Source: a virus
Length of the DNA: 64,000 nt
Strand: one strand, 5' to 3'
Virus record (IMG/VR): IMGVR_UViG_3300034071_002576
Location: 1 to 64,000 of that record
Shown piece after piece: positions 3,930 through 55,005 of the stretch. How positions within the stretch are numbered: the stretch's first letter is position 1; every line of letters begins with the position of its first letter. The position numbers and the translations under genes are program-made. Below the pieces are notes generated by a model that searched no databases, was not told where the DNA came from, and saw only the letters and a program-made list of their open reading frames with translations.

Positions 3930-4559
3930 ATGACCTCGACTCCCGTCATTCTTCTTCTTAAAAGATCCGGCCAGTCATCTGATCGACCTCAGACTAGTGT
4001 TGTTCAAAATGGCGAACTTGCCATCGCCGTGGGCGCAGCCGACCCAGGTCTCTACTTCGAGGATTCTGCCGGAAGTATTCGAAAAATCGGCCCTTCGCAT
4101 TACGGCACGACGGCACCAAACTCAGCTCCTGTCGGGTTAGCGGGTAACTCAGTTGGCGAGCTTTGGGCTGACAGCTCGTCGAGTAGCTATTACCTGAAAG
4201 TCTGGACTGGCGGCGTGTGGCAAAAAGTTGGAGCCGGATTCGCCGATTCTGCAACTACGGCGACTACGGCAACTACGGCAACATTTGCGACCCAAGCCTC
4301 TACGTCTACACTTTCGTCTGGTACTATTCTGGCTTCTGGTGCCATACTGGCTTCTGGTGCCGTTTTTTCTAACACAGCGACGCTAGCTTCCGGAGCCATA
4401 CTGGCTTCTGGTGCCATTCAGAGTTCCACTGTGGTTCTTAGCGGGTTACCGAGTCCGACCGCGAACCCATCTGGAACTCTTATCTACCAAGTTCAATCTT
4501 CCGGCGTGTTTGCCGCCGGACTTTACGTCCGCGCTAGGGACACGTGGCTTCTTGTTTAA
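3930..4559 (+). CDS. short tail-fibre-like repeat protein
   Basis: 209 residues, starting directly after the previous stop. The N-terminal half resembles the conserved head of cyanophage fibre proteins (QNGELAIAVGAADPGLYFED, then GELWADSS and LKVWTGGVWQKVG). The C-terminal half is a Thr/Ala/Ser repeat region with several LASGAI units, expected to form a trimeric beta or collagen-like stalk. The stop overlaps the stop of the convergent Dps-like gene by 4 nt. Probable tail fibre or adhesin subunit. Confidence 0.65.
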   Translation: MTSTPVILLLKRSGQSSDRPQTSVVQNGELAIAVGAADPGLYFEDSAGSIRKIGPSHYGTTAPNSAPVGLAGNSVGELWADSSSSSYYLKVWTGGVWQKVGAGFADSATTATTATTATFATQASTSTLSSGTILASGAILASGAVFSNTATLASGAILASGAIQSSTVVLSGLPSPTANPSGTLIYQVQSSGVFAAGLYVRARDTWLLV

Positions 4560-5095
4560 GGGCGAAGAGTGCTCTTAAGGAACCAAGAAGATTTGAACAT
4601 CGCTCCCACAAGTTCCGCCAGGTAGTTTTCGATGTCCGGAGCGTCGACTTCTTTTGCTACTTTTTGAAGATCTTTGGAGGCCATTCCGCACGCCTCTAAA
4701 TTTTTCAGATATACGGTAAGACCTTCGCGTGTTTCGTATGCTTTAACGTGTTTAAATCCTTTGTACGCGCCCAGTAAACCTCGCTCGCACATAGGCATCA
4801 AGAAGTCCATCGAGCGAATAAATTCGCCGATTTTGTCGAATTGATCGATGTGTGCGTTGTACTGCTTTTTCAGGAACTTGTGGATAGGCAAAAAGAGCGG
4901 ACCCTCGACATTCAGGTGAAGAAGGTGACTCTGAACGTAAAGTTGGTGTAAATAAGACGATAAAGACACCAGTCCAGAAATTAAATCCTGAACTGATGCC
5001 TTGTTCTCCTCGTTCCCCTCCTCCGATTCTTCGAACATCTGCTCGGTAGCTTCCTGCGGAGCAGGCATAGAGTTAAAAGAACCGGAGAACGTCAT
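4556..5095 (-). CDS. Dps-like ferritin-family protein
   Basis: 179 residues. The core resembles Dps/mini-ferritin: a helix containing QSHLLHLNVEGPLFLPIHKF, followed by QYNAHIDQFDKIGEFIR. Spacing of the conserved ferroxidase ligands of Dps is kept for four of five positions: H, H twelve residues later, D fifteen after that, and E four further. The usual Asp four residues after the second His is Lys, so iron oxidation may be weakened. Dps proteins bind DNA and detoxify iron and peroxide. Here the N-terminal extension (about 40 residues) is acidic rather than basic, so DNA binding by that tail is doubtful. It lies 10 nt downstream of an HTH gene on the same strand. Confidence 0.6.
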   Translation of the reverse strand: MTFSGSFNSMPAPQEATEQMFEESEEGNEENKASVQDLISGLVSLSSYLHQLYVQSHLLHLNVEGPLFLPIHKFLKKQYNAHIDQFDKIGEFIRSMDFLMPMCERGLLGAYKGFKHVKAYETREGLTVYLKNLEACGMASKDLQKVAKEVDAPDIENYLAELVGAMFKSSWFLKSTLRP

Positions 5096-16265: not shown

Positions 16266-16625
16266 ATGGCCTGCGGCAAGCATTGTGTTCTGGAGCTTTA
16301 CCGCGCCTCTGCGCAGAAACTTAACGATGAAGCTTTCATTCGCGATGCCTTGGCTGAAGCTGCCCGCGTGTCTCATGCGACTCTGATCGATATTAGAACT
16401 CACTCTTTTGTGCCTCAGGGCGTCACTGGCTTTGCGTTGCTTGCCGAGTCCCACATCTCCATCCACACGTGGCCAGAACACGGCTACGCCGCCGTTGACG
16501 TTTTTACCTGCGGGGATAAGACTGACCCGGAATTAGCCTGTTCATTTTTAGCTAAGGCTTTCGAGGCGGCGTCTAACCATATTCTTACTCTTGATCGATA
16601 TCTGCCTGATTTAATTCAAGTTTGA
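16266..16625 (+). CDS. speD: S-adenosylmethionine decarboxylase proenzyme
   Basis: 119 residues, the usual length of the short prokaryotic SpeD. The self-cleavage motif LAESHISIHTWPEHGYAAVD is intact: Ser62 becomes the pyruvoyl group, with His67 and Cys82 at the expected catalytic positions. The enzyme makes decarboxylated SAM for spermidine synthesis. speD is a recurrent auxiliary gene in cyanophages. No other polyamine gene is seen here, so the product would feed the host spermidine synthase. It lies between a glycosyltransferase and an HNH endonuclease gene on its own strand segment. Confidence 0.9.
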   Translation: MACGKHCVLELYRASAQKLNDEAFIRDALAEAARVSHATLIDIRTHSFVPQGVTGFALLAESHISIHTWPEHGYAAVDVFTCGDKTDPELACSFLAKAFEAASNHILTLDRYLPDLIQV

Positions 16626-20872: not shown

Positions 20873-21595
20873 GTGGATTCAAAATTCAGGGTGGATGTGC
20901 TGAACCAAACAGTGCATCCGCAAACTCTCGTTTGGTTCGCCCTTCATCAAGACTATTCGGAAACTTACGTTTTTACAGAAGATCCGCCGACTGAATCCAG
21001 AGCCGGTGAAGTTATTACTAAGCGGTTGCTCTCCGGTGAACGCGGGCACTACGGTCCGTTAGAGCACCCTTCCATCACATTTAGTTGCGGGTTTTTTCCT
21101 CACTCTGTGATGCAGCAGGCGCGCACACACCGCGTGGCCGTATCCTTCGACGTCCAATCGATGCGCTACACCGGCAATCGAATTTGCCAGGTCGCGGATG
21201 GTCTGCTGGACTTGGAGGATGTTTTCTATCTACGCCCCGTAGGCACCTACTCCGATCGTCAAGGTAAAAAATATACCTATACAGAGGAGCACCGCAGTGA
21301 AGATTTGATCCTTTGTAAAGCTGCCGCTCAGCGGTACTGCCATATGGTTCGGTACCTAGGACTCGCCGAGGAACACGCGCGAGGTATCCTGCCGTTCGAT
21401 TTTCGGCAGCACTTTGTCGTGACGTTCAGCATGCGGTCGTTCCTGCATTTCATGGACCTACGCAGCAAACTCGATGCTCAGGAGGAGATCCGCAATCTGT
21501 GCGACCTGATGTGGCCCCATTTCTCCGCGTGGGCACCCGAGATCGCTGCTTGGTATGAGAAGTCTCGCCTGCACAAAGCGCGTTTAGCTCCCTAA
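20873..21595 (+). CDS. thyX: flavin-dependent thymidylate synthase
   Basis: 240 residues from a GTG. The ThyX signature RHRx7S appears as RTHRVAVSFDVQSMRY. Other family landmarks are HYGPLEHPSITF upstream and FRQHFVVTFSMRSFLHFMDL near the C-terminus. ThyX makes dTMP from dUMP using FAD, NADPH and methylene-THF. Together with the dCMP deaminase at 63018 it would supply thymidylate for phage replication. It ends the rightward 20011-21595 group, followed by a GC-rich hairpin at 21605-21626. Confidence 0.9.
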   Translation: MDSKFRVDVLNQTVHPQTLVWFALHQDYSETYVFTEDPPTESRAGEVITKRLLSGERGHYGPLEHPSITFSCGFFPHSVMQQARTHRVAVSFDVQSMRYTGNRICQVADGLLDLEDVFYLRPVGTYSDRQGKKYTYTEEHRSEDLILCKAAAQRYCHMVRYLGLAEEHARGILPFDFRQHFVVTFSMRSFLHFMDLRSKLDAQEEIRNLCDLMWPHFSAWAPEIAAWYEKSRLHKARLAP

Positions 21596-35310: not shown

Positions 35311-36861
35311 TTAGCGGAGACACTTTTGAATCGCATCCACAGCTTTCTCTGTGTTGTAAACGTTCACGGAATACACCTCATCGCTAAATCCTCGGCACAC
35401 ATCCGGGATGTCCGTGTTTATGCAGACAGTTGACCACTGGGTACCTGTTGCTGCTTTGAACGTGTTTACCTTTCGTTTGAGGGTTTCGTTGATGTCCGAG
35501 TGACCGTCCGTAATCATCAGAATGTCTGCTCGCGAATCTCGACAGCCTTTGTCGACCGCGTGGCTTAGTACGGCATTGAAGCTCGTCCCTCCGCCGAGAA
35601 TCCAGGTTCCTATGAAATCCAGCATCGTCGAGAGGTTGTTGCTCTTAGGGATTAGTTCGACTGTGTGCTCTATGCGCGTATCGAACAAGTTTATGAAAAC
35701 TTTTCGGTTTTCTTTCAGTGCTTCTTCCGCGACCACAAATGCGATGGCCTTGCTCCAGAGCTCAGGTTCTCCGCTCATAGAACCGGAGACATCGATATAC
35801 ATAACAACAGGACCTTTGCCTAGATTTTTTTGCTGAGCTGTGTAGTCTTTTGTGAGTATAGTCTTTTGGGAGAATTTCAGGGCAAATAATGCGCGCCCCT
35901 GGGGGGTTCCTGCCAGCGCGAGCTCTGCTGGAAAAGCTTTGGTGACATCGTTGCTGAAGGTTGCTCCTGTGATTGCCTCGTAGTTTGCCGAAGCGCTCTT
36001 AGCCCTCTTTCGTTGAAGCCACACGCGACGCAGAGCCCCGAGTTTTTTTGTCAGTGCGCGAAGCTGTTTACTGTTCTTGAGCCTGTTAGCTAATTCTTTT
36101 TTCTCCTTGAGGTCGTTTGTTTGCCTGCCTTGACCGGGCTGCAACCCGTGGAGAGTAGACAATGCCTCTTCCGTTTCGTCGCTTTCCTTTATTACTTGAT
36201 CGATAATCTGGCTCGCTTGCGGTTGGAGTCTTTCCGCAGCTTGTTGGATAGCGTCGTTGATTGCCTGATTCAGTGCCTTGCCTGCTCGCCGCGCTTCGTT
36301 TGCTTTTTGAGTGTCTCCCTCTTTCTGGGCTTTTTGAAACTGCTCCCTGAGTTCCTGCAGTTTTTTGTCTGCTGCTGTAAGGAGCTCGACGTCGAATTGA
36401 TTCTCCTCTATCGCTTTCTGAATAACTTCAGATAGTTTGTTGAGGATATTTACGGAGTTGTTCCCAGAGTTGAACTGGTTACCCACGCAACGCGTGAGTA
36501 GCTCTGTCCAGCCAGCAGCTTGGGATAAGTCAGCCATGATTGCATACCATATTCCATTCTCTGGTTTATACCCTTCTGGTATTGCCGCGCTATCGCCGTC
36601 GCAAACCTTTCGGAAATACTGTTCGTAGGCGTCTTCCGTGACGAGCCAGTTGACGTTGTCACCGTTATAGAGTCTGTCAAATAGCTCCTTCCCGAAGCGA
36701 GACAGTTGTTTGATGTTGTGATGGTCGATTAGGTAGGTAACAACAGGACGGCTTTCTCTGATGAAGTCATCCCATAGAAAATCCGCCAGCGCAGAACAAG
36801 CGAGCGTTAGAGGCTCGTTGTTGACGAGACGAACGAATTCTGAGTGCGTGTCAAAGTTCAT
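35311..36861 (-). CDS. von Willebrand A-domain protein, CobT/ViaA-like
   Basis: 516 residues from the ATG at 36861; the frame runs further up, but a small gene overlaps there. Residues about 170-300 are coiled-coil and Lys/Gln/Ala-rich. The VWA domain begins near 355 with a complete MIDAS: YIDVSGSMSG (DxSxS), GGGTSFN (Thr) and MITDGHSD (Asp). Paired with the MoxR-type ATPase upstream, it fits the MoxR/VWA systems (RavA-ViaA, CobS-CobT), in which the ATPase remodels or inserts metal into a target recognised by the VWA protein. Target in phage infection unknown. Confidence 0.8.
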   Translation of the reverse strand: MNFDTHSEFVRLVNNEPLTLACSALADFLWDDFIRESRPVVTYLIDHHNIKQLSRFGKELFDRLYNGDNVNWLVTEDAYEQYFRKVCDGDSAAIPEGYKPENGIWYAIMADLSQAAGWTELLTRCVGNQFNSGNNSVNILNKLSEVIQKAIEENQFDVELLTAADKKLQELREQFQKAQKEGDTQKANEARRAGKALNQAINDAIQQAAERLQPQASQIIDQVIKESDETEEALSTLHGLQPGQGRQTNDLKEKKELANRLKNSKQLRALTKKLGALRRVWLQRKRAKSASANYEAITGATFSNDVTKAFPAELALAGTPQGRALFALKFSQKTILTKDYTAQQKNLGKGPVVMYIDVSGSMSGEPELWSKAIAFVVAEEALKENRKVFINLFDTRIEHTVELIPKSNNLSTMLDFIGTWILGGGTSFNAVLSHAVDKGCRDSRADILMITDGHSDINETLKRKVNTFKAATGTQWSTVCINTDIPDVCRGFSDEVYSVNVYNTEKAVDAIQKCLR

Positions 36862-37081
36862 TTGATGGTTTGCTTGTGTCGGTGCTGGTTTCCGAGAGTT
36901 CATCCGTAATAGCTTTCCGATAACCCCAGGCTGCCGCCGTGGCCGCCAACCTATGGATCGGGTCCTCACAATCCGGATGCCGAGAGTCCTGCAGGATCGA
37001 AACCCACCAGGACTCTACGAGCTCTGCTGAAAGTTCCTTACGTAATCCTTTACTTACTGATGTCACTGATAGCTCGCGCAA
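36851..37081 (-). CDS. small protein related to the 43361-44572 family
   Basis: 76 residues bridging the MoxR and VWA genes, overlapping them by 32 and 11 nt. Contains WWVSILQDSR and HRLAATAAAWGYRKAITDEL. The AAxAAxWGY core recurs in the tandem family at 43361-44572 (AARAAQWGYEQ). Codon overlap with both partners suggests co-translation. Function unknown. Confidence 0.5.
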   Translation of the reverse strand: MRELSVTSVSKGLRKELSAELVESWWVSILQDSRHPDCEDPIHRLAATAAAWGYRKAITDELSETSTDTSKPSNEL

Positions 37082-38237
37082 GGGTATCGCAGTGATTTTG
37101 GAGAGTTTGCTGAAGTTTAACTCCGGAGCTGCGTGTGCTCGCAGACATTCTCAGCTTGGACCCGTCCAACAGTTCTGAGACTTTATCCCTTACTGTTGTC
37201 ATGTCTTTAGCGTATTTACGTAGTTGAACAACAAAATCATTAAGCTCACTCAAACCTTTGACTCGGTAGCGATGGCTGTGTGTGCTGTACTCGGCCATGA
37301 TTCCTGCAGCAGCTCTCTTCGCGTCTGAAAACACTTTGTCCGCTGTGGGGACCTCCTGCTCTAGAACCTCCTTAATGATGTCTTGATCCTCCCCTGATTG
37401 GTAGACAATGTGAATCAAACTACCGTGCATATGTTCAGGGAATAACTCGTCGTCACCTTGGACAACAGCCCATGCTTTGAGAAACTTGAGGATTTGAACG
37501 CGGCGTCTATCGCTGATCGTGATCGCTCGGGTGCCCAGCATCTCCCAGACCGAACTGAACTTATCTAAGAATTCCGCTGATACCGAGATTTGCTCGGCTT
37601 CAGTCTGCAGTTCAGCTAGTTCGTTGAGGGTTAAGTGCTCGCCCACCGCGGGGCGCTTTTCCATACCCAGACCCCATGCGTCCAGCTTCCTCTTAGATAC
37701 GGGTTTTTGCAAGAGGTTAACTGTAGGGCGAAATAAGAAACGATCGGCAAAAGCCTGCAGTGACTCTTCGTCTGGCCAGCTGTTCGTCGCAGCGATGATC
37801 GATTGGATGGGTGTCTCGATATTCTCTTTACCGTTGTTAAACGTCCTCTCGTTCAACAGAGTGAGTAGTGAATTAAGGATCGCAGAGGATCCACGAAACA
37901 ACTCGTCTAAGAATCCGATGTGAGCTGTAGGCAGATAACCTTCTGTGTCGCGGGTGTACTCGTCGGCCAGCAGTTTGGTCACTGCAACAGGACCGAACAC
38001 CTCGGATGGATCCGTCGTGGGGGTGAGCAGGTATCCGAAGTAGTTTGCTCCGCTTATCCCTCCGCAAACGCTCCGCACTAGATCTGACTTACCTGTACCG
38101 GGTAGACCTAAGAGGAACGCGTTTTGCTTGCTCAACAGCGACGCAAGCAATCCGTCAATAACTGGACCGCGTTCCAGATGTGCTGCGCTGAGTGCGCCGC
38201 GGAAGTTTTGAAGCTTGGTGAAGAGTTGATCGTTCAT
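37050..38237 (-). CDS. MoxR-family AAA+ ATPase, RavA/CobS-like
   Basis: 395 residues from the ATG at 38237. AAA+ motifs: Walker A LLGLPGTGKS (near 45), the MoxR-type TTDPSEVFGP loop, Walker B HIGFLDELFRGSSAILNSLL, sensor 1 IIAATNSW, and arginine finger FADRFLFRP. The C-terminal 200 residues are helical. MoxR ATPases work with VWA proteins to mature or remodel complexes; CobS-type forms chelate cobalt in cobalamin synthesis. No chelatase large subunit is present, so a chaperone role is more likely. In an operon with VWA and DUF3150-like genes. Confidence 0.85.
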   Translation of the reverse strand: MNDQLFTKLQNFRGALSAAHLERGPVIDGLLASLLSKQNAFLLGLPGTGKSDLVRSVCGGISGANYFGYLLTPTTDPSEVFGPVAVTKLLADEYTRDTEGYLPTAHIGFLDELFRGSSAILNSLLTLLNERTFNNGKENIETPIQSIIAATNSWPDEESLQAFADRFLFRPTVNLLQKPVSKRKLDAWGLGMEKRPAVGEHLTLNELAELQTEAEQISVSAEFLDKFSSVWEMLGTRAITISDRRRVQILKFLKAWAVVQGDDELFPEHMHGSLIHIVYQSGEDQDIIKEVLEQEVPTADKVFSDAKRAAAGIMAEYSTHSHRYRVKGLSELNDFVVQLRKYAKDMTTVRDKVSELLDGSKLRMSASTRSSGVKLQQTLQNHCDTLARAISDISK

Positions 38238-38458
38238 GGTTTGATTGTGAGTGGTTGGTAGCCGATTGGGTGCGGAAAAGGAATGCAGTGCATGTTCACT
38301 CTGCACTCTGTTACTAAAGACTTTGTTAGTGTCGCTAGCTTTTTAACGGCAGTGTCATACTCGACAAAAGTGACAGCTTCGAAAATGTTTGATGTGTACT
38401 TTTCGATGTCACACAAATAGCCTTTCGACGATTCGATGACATAAACGAGTCGATCCAT
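38234..38458 (-). CDS. hypothetical protein between ATPase and DUF3150-like genes
   Basis: 74 residues, MDRLVYVIESSKGYLCDIEK at the N-terminus. Overlaps the ATPase gene by 4 nt and the preceding stop by 1 nt, so certainly in the operon. No motif recognised. Confidence 0.6.
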   Translation of the reverse strand: MDRLVYVIESSKGYLCDIEKYTSNIFEAVTFVEYDTAVKKLATLTKSLVTECRVNMHCIPFPHPIGYQPLTIKP

Positions 38459-54239: not shown

Positions 54240-54340
54240 CACCCAGTGCGAGCCAACGGATAGGACGGCCCCTCACTCGGTACCGGACGCGGTGCTTTGA
54301 CGTGAGACCGGCGATGCGGGTTCGAATCCTGCCTGGGTGA
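54240..54340 (+). tRNA. aberrant tRNA-like element
   Basis: The acceptor strands CACCCAG and CTGGGTG pair fully, and the T arm GCGGG-TTCGAAT-CCTGC is canonical, followed by an unpaired A; CCA is not encoded. The element is 101 nt, too long. CTCAC pairs with GTGAG at the place of the anticodon stem but encloses 25 nt rather than 7. Removing 18 of these would leave CTTTGAC, a glutamine (UUG)-like loop. The D arm is poor (GCC/GGC). Functional tRNA, pseudogene or tRNA-like regulatory RNA cannot be told apart. Confidence 0.45.
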
Positions 54341-54369
54341 TTCATATCAGGCACATCCAACTTTATTAC

Positions 54370-55005
54370 ATGAGTTATCTAAATCACAATCTGCCTACAT
54401 TTACCTGCTATATCCGCAACGAATTTCTATATAATCATAAGAAGGGCCACGGTGAAGTGACGCTATGTGACGTCCATTCAGTCGCCTCTTTGGAGAAACG
54501 CGTTCCCTTATTTGAAGTCTTTTTAGAGAACGGTGTTAACTGGACGAGGCGTCCGATACATGCCCTTTGCTGGAAGCCCGACGCGCCTAAGCCTGAGCTT
54601 AATGAATGTATGTGGTGGGACTGTTTCTCTCCGTATATCGACGTACAGGTTCGGTCGCGCCTCTCGAATTTACGCGCCCAGCTGATTACGTTTAAGGGGG
54701 AGAAAAAGGGCGGTATCTACATGTTCACCCTTGACTGGTCGTGGGAGTCTAAATCGACCTTGAATACAAACTTCAGCGAAACCCCGGAGCACAAGTGTGC
54801 GCACTTCTTCCGAATGGATGATGGCAACTTTTACGCGTACCCTAATAACCGAATTATTTGGTACGACGACGCATGGCTTAAGAATCGAATTGAAAAAAAT
54901 CCTGGGTATGAGATTGACTTGACAGAGTACAGCGTAGAGAATTCAAGAATGCTTGAAACGTCTGATCACTTTATGTATGAGACAGTAAACACAGGCGACC
55001 AGTAG
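54370..55005 (+). CDS. conserved hypothetical phage protein
   Basis: 211 residues from the ATG at 54370; a GTG at 54337 would overlap the tRNA-like element. Begins MSYLNHNLPTFTCYIRNEFL then HGEVTLCDVHSVASLEKRVP. I recognise PTFTCYIRNEFLY...GHGE as a widespread phage protein of unknown function. Rich in Trp, Tyr, Phe and His. Possibly involved in takeover or structure. Confidence 0.6.
   Translation: MSYLNHNLPTFTCYIRNEFLYNHKKGHGEVTLCDVHSVASLEKRVPLFEVFLENGVNWTRRPIHALCWKPDAPKPELNECMWWDCFSPYIDVQVRSRLSNLRAQLITFKGEKKGGIYMFTLDWSWESKSTLNTNFSETPEHKCAHFFRMDDGNFYAYPNNRIIWYDDAWLKNRIEKNPGYEIDLTEYSVENSRMLETSDHFMYETVNTGDQ

Follow-up and report, generated by a model that had tools for sequence, protein, structure and literature searches.

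A phage-encoded Dps-family mini-ferritin with an altered ferroxidase motif from an uncultured phage related to cyanophage S-EIV1

In canonical Dps proteins, iron site A is held by the first His of the ferroxidase motif, from which positions are counted here, together with the residues at +27 and +31 of the neighboring subunit. The residue at +16 helps to hold the metal of site B through a water molecule (PMC6675082). NpDps4, a His-type cyanobacterial Dps, has a non-coordinating Asn (Asn67) at +16 and binds two Fe; its Fe oxidation proceeds with O2, and none was detectable with H2O2 (PMC6675082). Metal-free class Ie RNR R2, a protein built on a ferritin-type four-helix bundle, carries a Lys where a metal-ligating Glu would stand (PMC11846895). 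It is known that phage-encoded Dps proteins are common, and they are already documented: examples are phiEco32 gp67, Aeromonas LAh_8, Proteus 3H10_20, and Streptomyces NootNoot, several of them beside nucleotide-metabolism genes, and one canonical phage Dps query matches 233 phage records. Gut ‘Gratiaviridae’ phages also encode Dps, and for gut phages in which Mn-catalase accompanies Dps, a role in handling iron and oxygen species while they infect has been proposed (PMC8008677). The closest described protein is the ‘DNA-binding ferritin-like protein’ of Synechococcus phage S-EIV1 (AHV82153.1, in KJ410740), whose ferritin-like annotation predates the present work. It is 56% identical to the protein described here over residues 35-178.

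We analyzed a stretch of 64,000 nucleotides (the window), which is part of an 86,340-base IMG/VR virus record. The record matches S-EIV1 at 52% for the terminase, 46% for a portal-like protein, and 68% for the major head protein (phrog_1357), and on these sequence matches the window phage is an uncultured relative of this cyanophage. The Dps gene and its neighbors are as follows.

4556..5095 (stop included), minus strand: Dps-like mini-ferritin gene, 179 aa, identified by PF00210, phrog_3636, the AlphaFold2 model, and a match to MrgA
4994..5095, minus strand: its N-terminal tail (residues 1-34), acidic by charge count and of low confidence by pLDDT
5106..5372, minus strand: small HTH_17/excisionase-like DNA-binding protein (PF12728, E = 5e-5, just below the cut-off)
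3930..4559, plus strand: convergent minor-tail-like gene (phrog_356, E = 1e-17), the stop of which overlaps the Dps stop

The Dps open reading frame starts with ATG. Its product matches the Pfam Ferritin profile PF00210 with 39.6 bits (cut-off 24.5, E = 6e-10) and PHROG 3636 (phage ‘DNA binding protein’, Dps-like) with an E value of 8e-25; the latter is also matched by 50 of the 50 aligned members of its clade. The match to the cyanobacterial equivalog NCBIfam DpsA (NF052461) is weak, with 24 bits over residues 32-95, and lies below the curated cut-off of 300 bits. An AlphaFold2 monomer model built with 50 relatives has a mean pLDDT of 86 and contains helices A (35-62), B (68-95), C (122-149), and D (153-176) and a short BC helix (104-110). 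The N-terminal tail has a net charge of −7, and residues 1-29, mostly with pLDDT below 50, are predicted to be disordered. Among the solved structures found by Foldseek, the best are all Dps, and the top VIA-align rows are nearly all Dps, with B. subtilis MrgA superimposing at Z = 22.1 and an rmsd of 1.5 Å over 145 residues. The protein thus has a ferritin-like profile and a four-helix bundle with a short BC helix and no helix E. A 24-mer ferritin or bacterioferritin is ruled out by the helix count, and the protein stops three residues past helix D. The profile, the predicted fold, and the alignment establish this product of an S-EIV1-like phage as a mini-ferritin of the Dps family. The sequence-only reading had proposed a phage ferritin resembling Dps in which one ferroxidase ligand is altered, and both things on which it had been staked, similarity to a family profile and a predicted four-helix bundle, were found. 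As a separate observation, the BFVD matches A0A6J7WPK9, A0A6J7XDU5, and A0A6J7WIS1 are Dps-like domains within larger phage ‘prohead protease’ proteins, so that some uncultured phages may encode a Dps-protease fusion.

The residues of the putative ferroxidase site and its surroundings are listed below.

4916..4918, minus strand: H60, ferroxidase ligand (+0), invariant in 100/100 relatives
4913..4915, minus strand: L61 (+1), Leu in 92 and Phe in 8 clade members; Trp in 30/30 cellular Dps
4880..4882, minus strand: H72, ferroxidase ligand (+12), invariant in 100/100 relatives
4868..4870, minus strand: K76 (+16), in place of the site-B Asp/Glu, compared between the clade and 30 cellular Dps
4835..4837, minus strand: D87, ferroxidase ligand (+27), invariant in the clade
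4823..4825, minus strand: E91, ferroxidase ligand (+31), invariant in the clade
4820..4822, minus strand: F92 (+32), Phe in 50, Leu in 30, Tyr in 15, Gln in 2, Ile in 2, and Met in 1 clade member; Arg in 30/30 cellular Dps
4787..4789, minus strand: C103, just ahead of the BC helix, Cys in 100/100 clade members

The initial observation that four of the five ferroxidase residues are kept at exact spacing (H60, H72, D87, and E91) with a Lys at +16 is borne out. The canonical pattern H, H(+12), D/E(+16), D(+27), E(+31) is broken at K76. Among 100 distinct clade proteins, this position is Lys in 93, Gly in 3, Asn in 2, Gln in 1, and Arg in 1, and it is never acidic. The 30 cellular Dps have Asp (15), Glu (14), or Met (1), which makes 29 of them acidic, and the six other phage Dps aligned all have Asp. 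In an alignment with solved Dps structures, residue 76 aligns with the canonical Glu of PA0962, C. jejuni Dps, HP-NAP, and CAIP and with the Asn of NpDps4. A sequencing or frame error is ruled out by the Lys in 93 of 100 distinct relatives. A shift of the acid to +15 or +17 is also ruled out, because the alignments have no gap between H72 and D87 and +17 is variable (Lys 56, Glu 19, Asp 14, Gly 11, Thr 1). At +1 and +32, the clade and the cellular proteins are fully separated, and the Trp and Arg present in all 30 controls are both absent from the window protein. The proposal of a single altered ligand therefore holds for the Lys at +16 and falls short in two respects: +1 and +32 are also changed, and the Lys, far from being peculiar to this phage, is fixed in a large phage subfamily.

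The Lys count was checked for search bias. The search peptide of the first of two IMG/VR scans, HKFLKKQY, includes position 76, whereas the patterns of the second scan leave it uncovered. Lys was therefore recounted on the rows of the second scan separately, where it occupies position 76 in 36 of 41 new distinct rows. In a PF00210 sample of 60 genomes, the fetched loci contained no Dps motif except in two clade members, and for this reason the cellular control consists of 30 Dps drawn from whole genomes through the NCBIfam Dps sample.

The window protein was also compared with the known groups. Canonical Dps (MrgA 2chp, PA0962 8ff9, and L. innocua Dps 1qgh) share with the window protein the BC-helix fold, the lack of a fifth helix, and the H, H, D, and E ligands at identical spacing, but where they have Asp/Glu at +16, Trp at +1, and Arg at +32, it has other residues at all three positions. 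The His-type cyanobacterial Dps (NpDps4 5hjf and TeDpsA 2vxx) resemble it in the non-acidic +16 and in a similar motif, LY.Q...H..VEG..F...H.F. Their residue at +27 is, however, a His (His78), whereas the clade has the invariant Asp, D87. The third-subunit His164 of NpDps4 corresponds in position to about F172, mostly Met or Phe in the clade, as placed by an approximate residue offset only (model 31-179 to chain 22-171). The S-EIV1 protein belongs to the same phage lineage and has the same four ligands and a non-acidic +16, which is Gly instead of Lys, and a Lys/Pro tail instead of an acidic one. Unlike the clade, the six other aligned phage Dps retain Trp(+1) and Asp(+16). A search of open papers found no description of a consistently non-acidic +16 with two linked changes, and this ferroxidase variant appears to be undescribed.

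The sequence-only reading could not judge how rare such a protein is in cyanophages; the variant proved to be common. The second IMG/VR scan gave 363 confirmed loci, the best 80 of which were used, so that the clade comprises at least 363 loci there. Capsid genes 93-100% identical to that of the window phage occur on 27 contigs with a length of 19 kb or more; 23 of these contigs carry the Dps gene, and in the remaining four the coordinates place the capsid gene too close to the contig end for the Dps position. The gene was thus found wherever an S-EIV1-like capsid contig extends far enough to include its position, indicating that it is consistently present in the lineage. In 80 contigs, the major head protein is 93-100% identical, and the Dps proteins of the same phages go down to about 55%. 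The major head gene lies at positions 1707-2822 of segment L162 (81707-82822 of the genome); the S-EIV1 record splits this region into two genes on opposite strands, which is probably an annotation error.

Degenerate patterns searched against 84,980 bacterial and archaeal species of GTDB found two contigs only (L079 and L080), both from metagenome-assembled genomes, and a recent acquisition from a host is thus unsupported. The neighbors in L079 are S-EIV1-type phage genes. The member in L080 (6001-6459) is 40% identical and has Lys at +16; its contig, 48 kb long, was assigned to a Euryarchaeota bin, and its neighbors are unlike those of S-EIV1-type phages. A maximum-likelihood tree was built from one canonical phage Dps, 32 clade members, and 30 cellular Dps, all of the latter non-cyanobacterial. 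In this tree, the clade forms one branch with a support of 100/100, and its stem measures 5.1 changes per column. The Dps of Aeromonas phage BUCT695, one of the six other phage proteins, falls outside it on a long branch. The weak NCBIfam DpsA match and the likeness of the motif to that of NpDps4 hint at a cyanobacterial origin. Against relatives at 85-98% protein identity, dN/dS is about 0.06 (0.03-0.08), with dS near saturation in remoter pairs, which shows that the gene is under purifying selection. A chance motif match is ruled out by the profile, the predicted fold, and conservation: four ligands invariant in 100 distinct relatives and a dN/dS of ~0.06 exclude a chance origin. The acidic N-terminal tail noted initially is real in the window protein and is characteristic of only part of the subfamily. 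Tails in the window's branch are acidic (−2 to −8), whereas those in the S-EIV1/marine branch tend to be Lys/Pro-rich.

The HTH gene lies 10 bp upstream of the Dps gene on the same strand, and the two are likely co-transcribed; 76 loci have an HTH homologue directly upstream in the same orientation, and in 77 the minor-tail-like gene is a conserved convergent neighbor. The Dps gene shares the minus strand with the primase and DNA polymerase genes, and the tail and lysis genes lie on the opposite strand. In S-EIV1, it is likewise on the primase/polymerase strand, adjoining sulfate adenylyltransferase, whereas the window gene adjoins the tail module. In S-EIV1 and a marine branch, the genes close to it encode sulfate adenylyltransferase, exonuclease, or primase. 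A promoter-like site or timing evidence for the Dps gene was looked for and not found. The strand and the neighbors of the gene favor an intracellular, non-virion role. Within the minor-tail-like gene, the region at 4280-4420 (plus strand) contains the short repeats ASGAILASGA and TATTATTAT, like variable tail-fibre-like regions.

The reading that we favor, with our confidence about evenly divided, is an intracellular Dps cage in which the iron site holds one metal or is altered in some other way, and which manages iron and peroxide during infection. The published view of gut phages with Dps and Mn-catalase agrees with such a role. The window Dps would assemble as a dodecamer, in which site A, formed at each two-fold interface by H60 with D87’ and E91’ (primes denote the neighboring subunit), would still bind Fe(II). 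Site B (H72 and E91’) would lack its acid, and the ammonium group of Lys76 may occupy the place of the second metal or point away. Because an acid is lost and a positive side chain is gained, site B should weaken or vanish. With site B altered, each site would hold one iron, which would be oxidized more slowly or with another oxidant preference than in canonical Dps. Expressed from the strand of the replication genes, the protein would be produced within the infected cell, and the cage would sequester ferrous iron and lower hydroxyl-radical damage to replicating phage DNA. Tight DNA binding by the window Dps is unlikely because of its acidic tail; clade members with Lys/Pro-rich tails may bind DNA. 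NpDps4 and class Ie RNR R2 bracket the possible outcomes, and on these precedents we favor the altered-site cage over three rivals. The swap at +16 probably changes how, or whether, the Dps oxidizes iron during infection.

A more specific version is a ‘Lys-type’ center, in which the Lys ammonium would be a built-in cation in place of the site-B metal, Arg(+32) and Trp(+1) would have been lost together with the gain of Lys, and a mononuclear site would bind iron without the usual two-iron peroxide chemistry. We put this forward tentatively, as less likely than not. If true, such a center would be a Dps analogue of metal-free class Ie RNR R2, and replacement of the metal by Lys would be a natural example of a di-iron site turning mononuclear. 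The few members with Gly, Asn, Gln, or Arg at position 76, S-EIV1 itself having Gly, indicate that the Lys is not strictly required. Because the other four ligands are invariant, including H72 of site B, this site may still hold a metal, as in NpDps4.

This last point leads to the strongest rival, in which both metals bind, site B through H72 and E91, oxidation is normal, and Lys76 points away, comparable to the non-coordinating Asn67 of NpDps4. The two Fe and the O2-dependent oxidation of NpDps4 without the acid, the Met at +16 in one cellular control, and the invariance of the four ligands all speak for ordinary chemistry. Lys in 93 of 100 proteins is, however, far above the conservation of a free position, and the swap is accompanied by the fixed changes at +1 and +32. 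Furthermore, NpDps4 compensates through its third-subunit His, which the window clade appears to lack by the approximate offset given above. We therefore regard ordinary chemistry as rather unlikely.

A structural dodecamer on DNA or the particle that does not oxidize iron, acting in nucleoid compaction or as a virion component, is distinctly improbable. The position beside the tail module in 76-77 loci and the basic tails of the S-EIV1/marine branch would suit it, and Dps roles vary, with Agrobacterium Dps reported to protect DNA without binding it. The gene is, however, on the replication strand opposite the tail genes, the S-EIV1 and marine genes adjoin primase/exonuclease genes instead of the tail, and the acidic tail of the window's branch disfavors DNA binding. 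Metal ligands that are 100% invariant are also unexpected for a purely structural protein. A site for another metal (for example Zn or Mn) or a redox/sensor role involving H57, H82, and C103 is very doubtful, since no partner enzyme is linked to the gene, although H57 and C103 do not vary within the clade, H82 is kept in 97 of 101 aligned rows, and neither H82 nor C103 is present in the aligned canonical Dps of phages and cells (Thr, Arg, Asp, Lys, Ala, or Ser at the position of C103).

What matters is that a widespread S-EIV1-type lineage carries a consistently placed Dps with a systematically rebuilt ferroxidase site. This raises the question of whether an iron cage with altered oxidation chemistry is needed when a phage replicates in an oxygen-evolving host.

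Several other genes of the window deserve mention. S-adenosylmethionine decarboxylase (16266-16625, plus strand) and thymidylate synthase (20873-21595, plus strand; S-EIV1 homologue annotated as FAD-dependent), both PHROG matches, are auxiliary genes that S-EIV1 also has. A MoxR-type AAA ATPase (bpMoxR, E = 7e-54) lies beside a VWA-domain protein at 35311-38306 (minus strand), a pair that resembles the cellular MoxR-VWA chaperone pairs. The gene at 54337-55005 (plus strand) matches phrog_3704 ‘ferredoxin’ (E = 3e-49), whereas its S-EIV1 homologue is labeled ‘PurM’; the two labels clash, and one is probably wrong.
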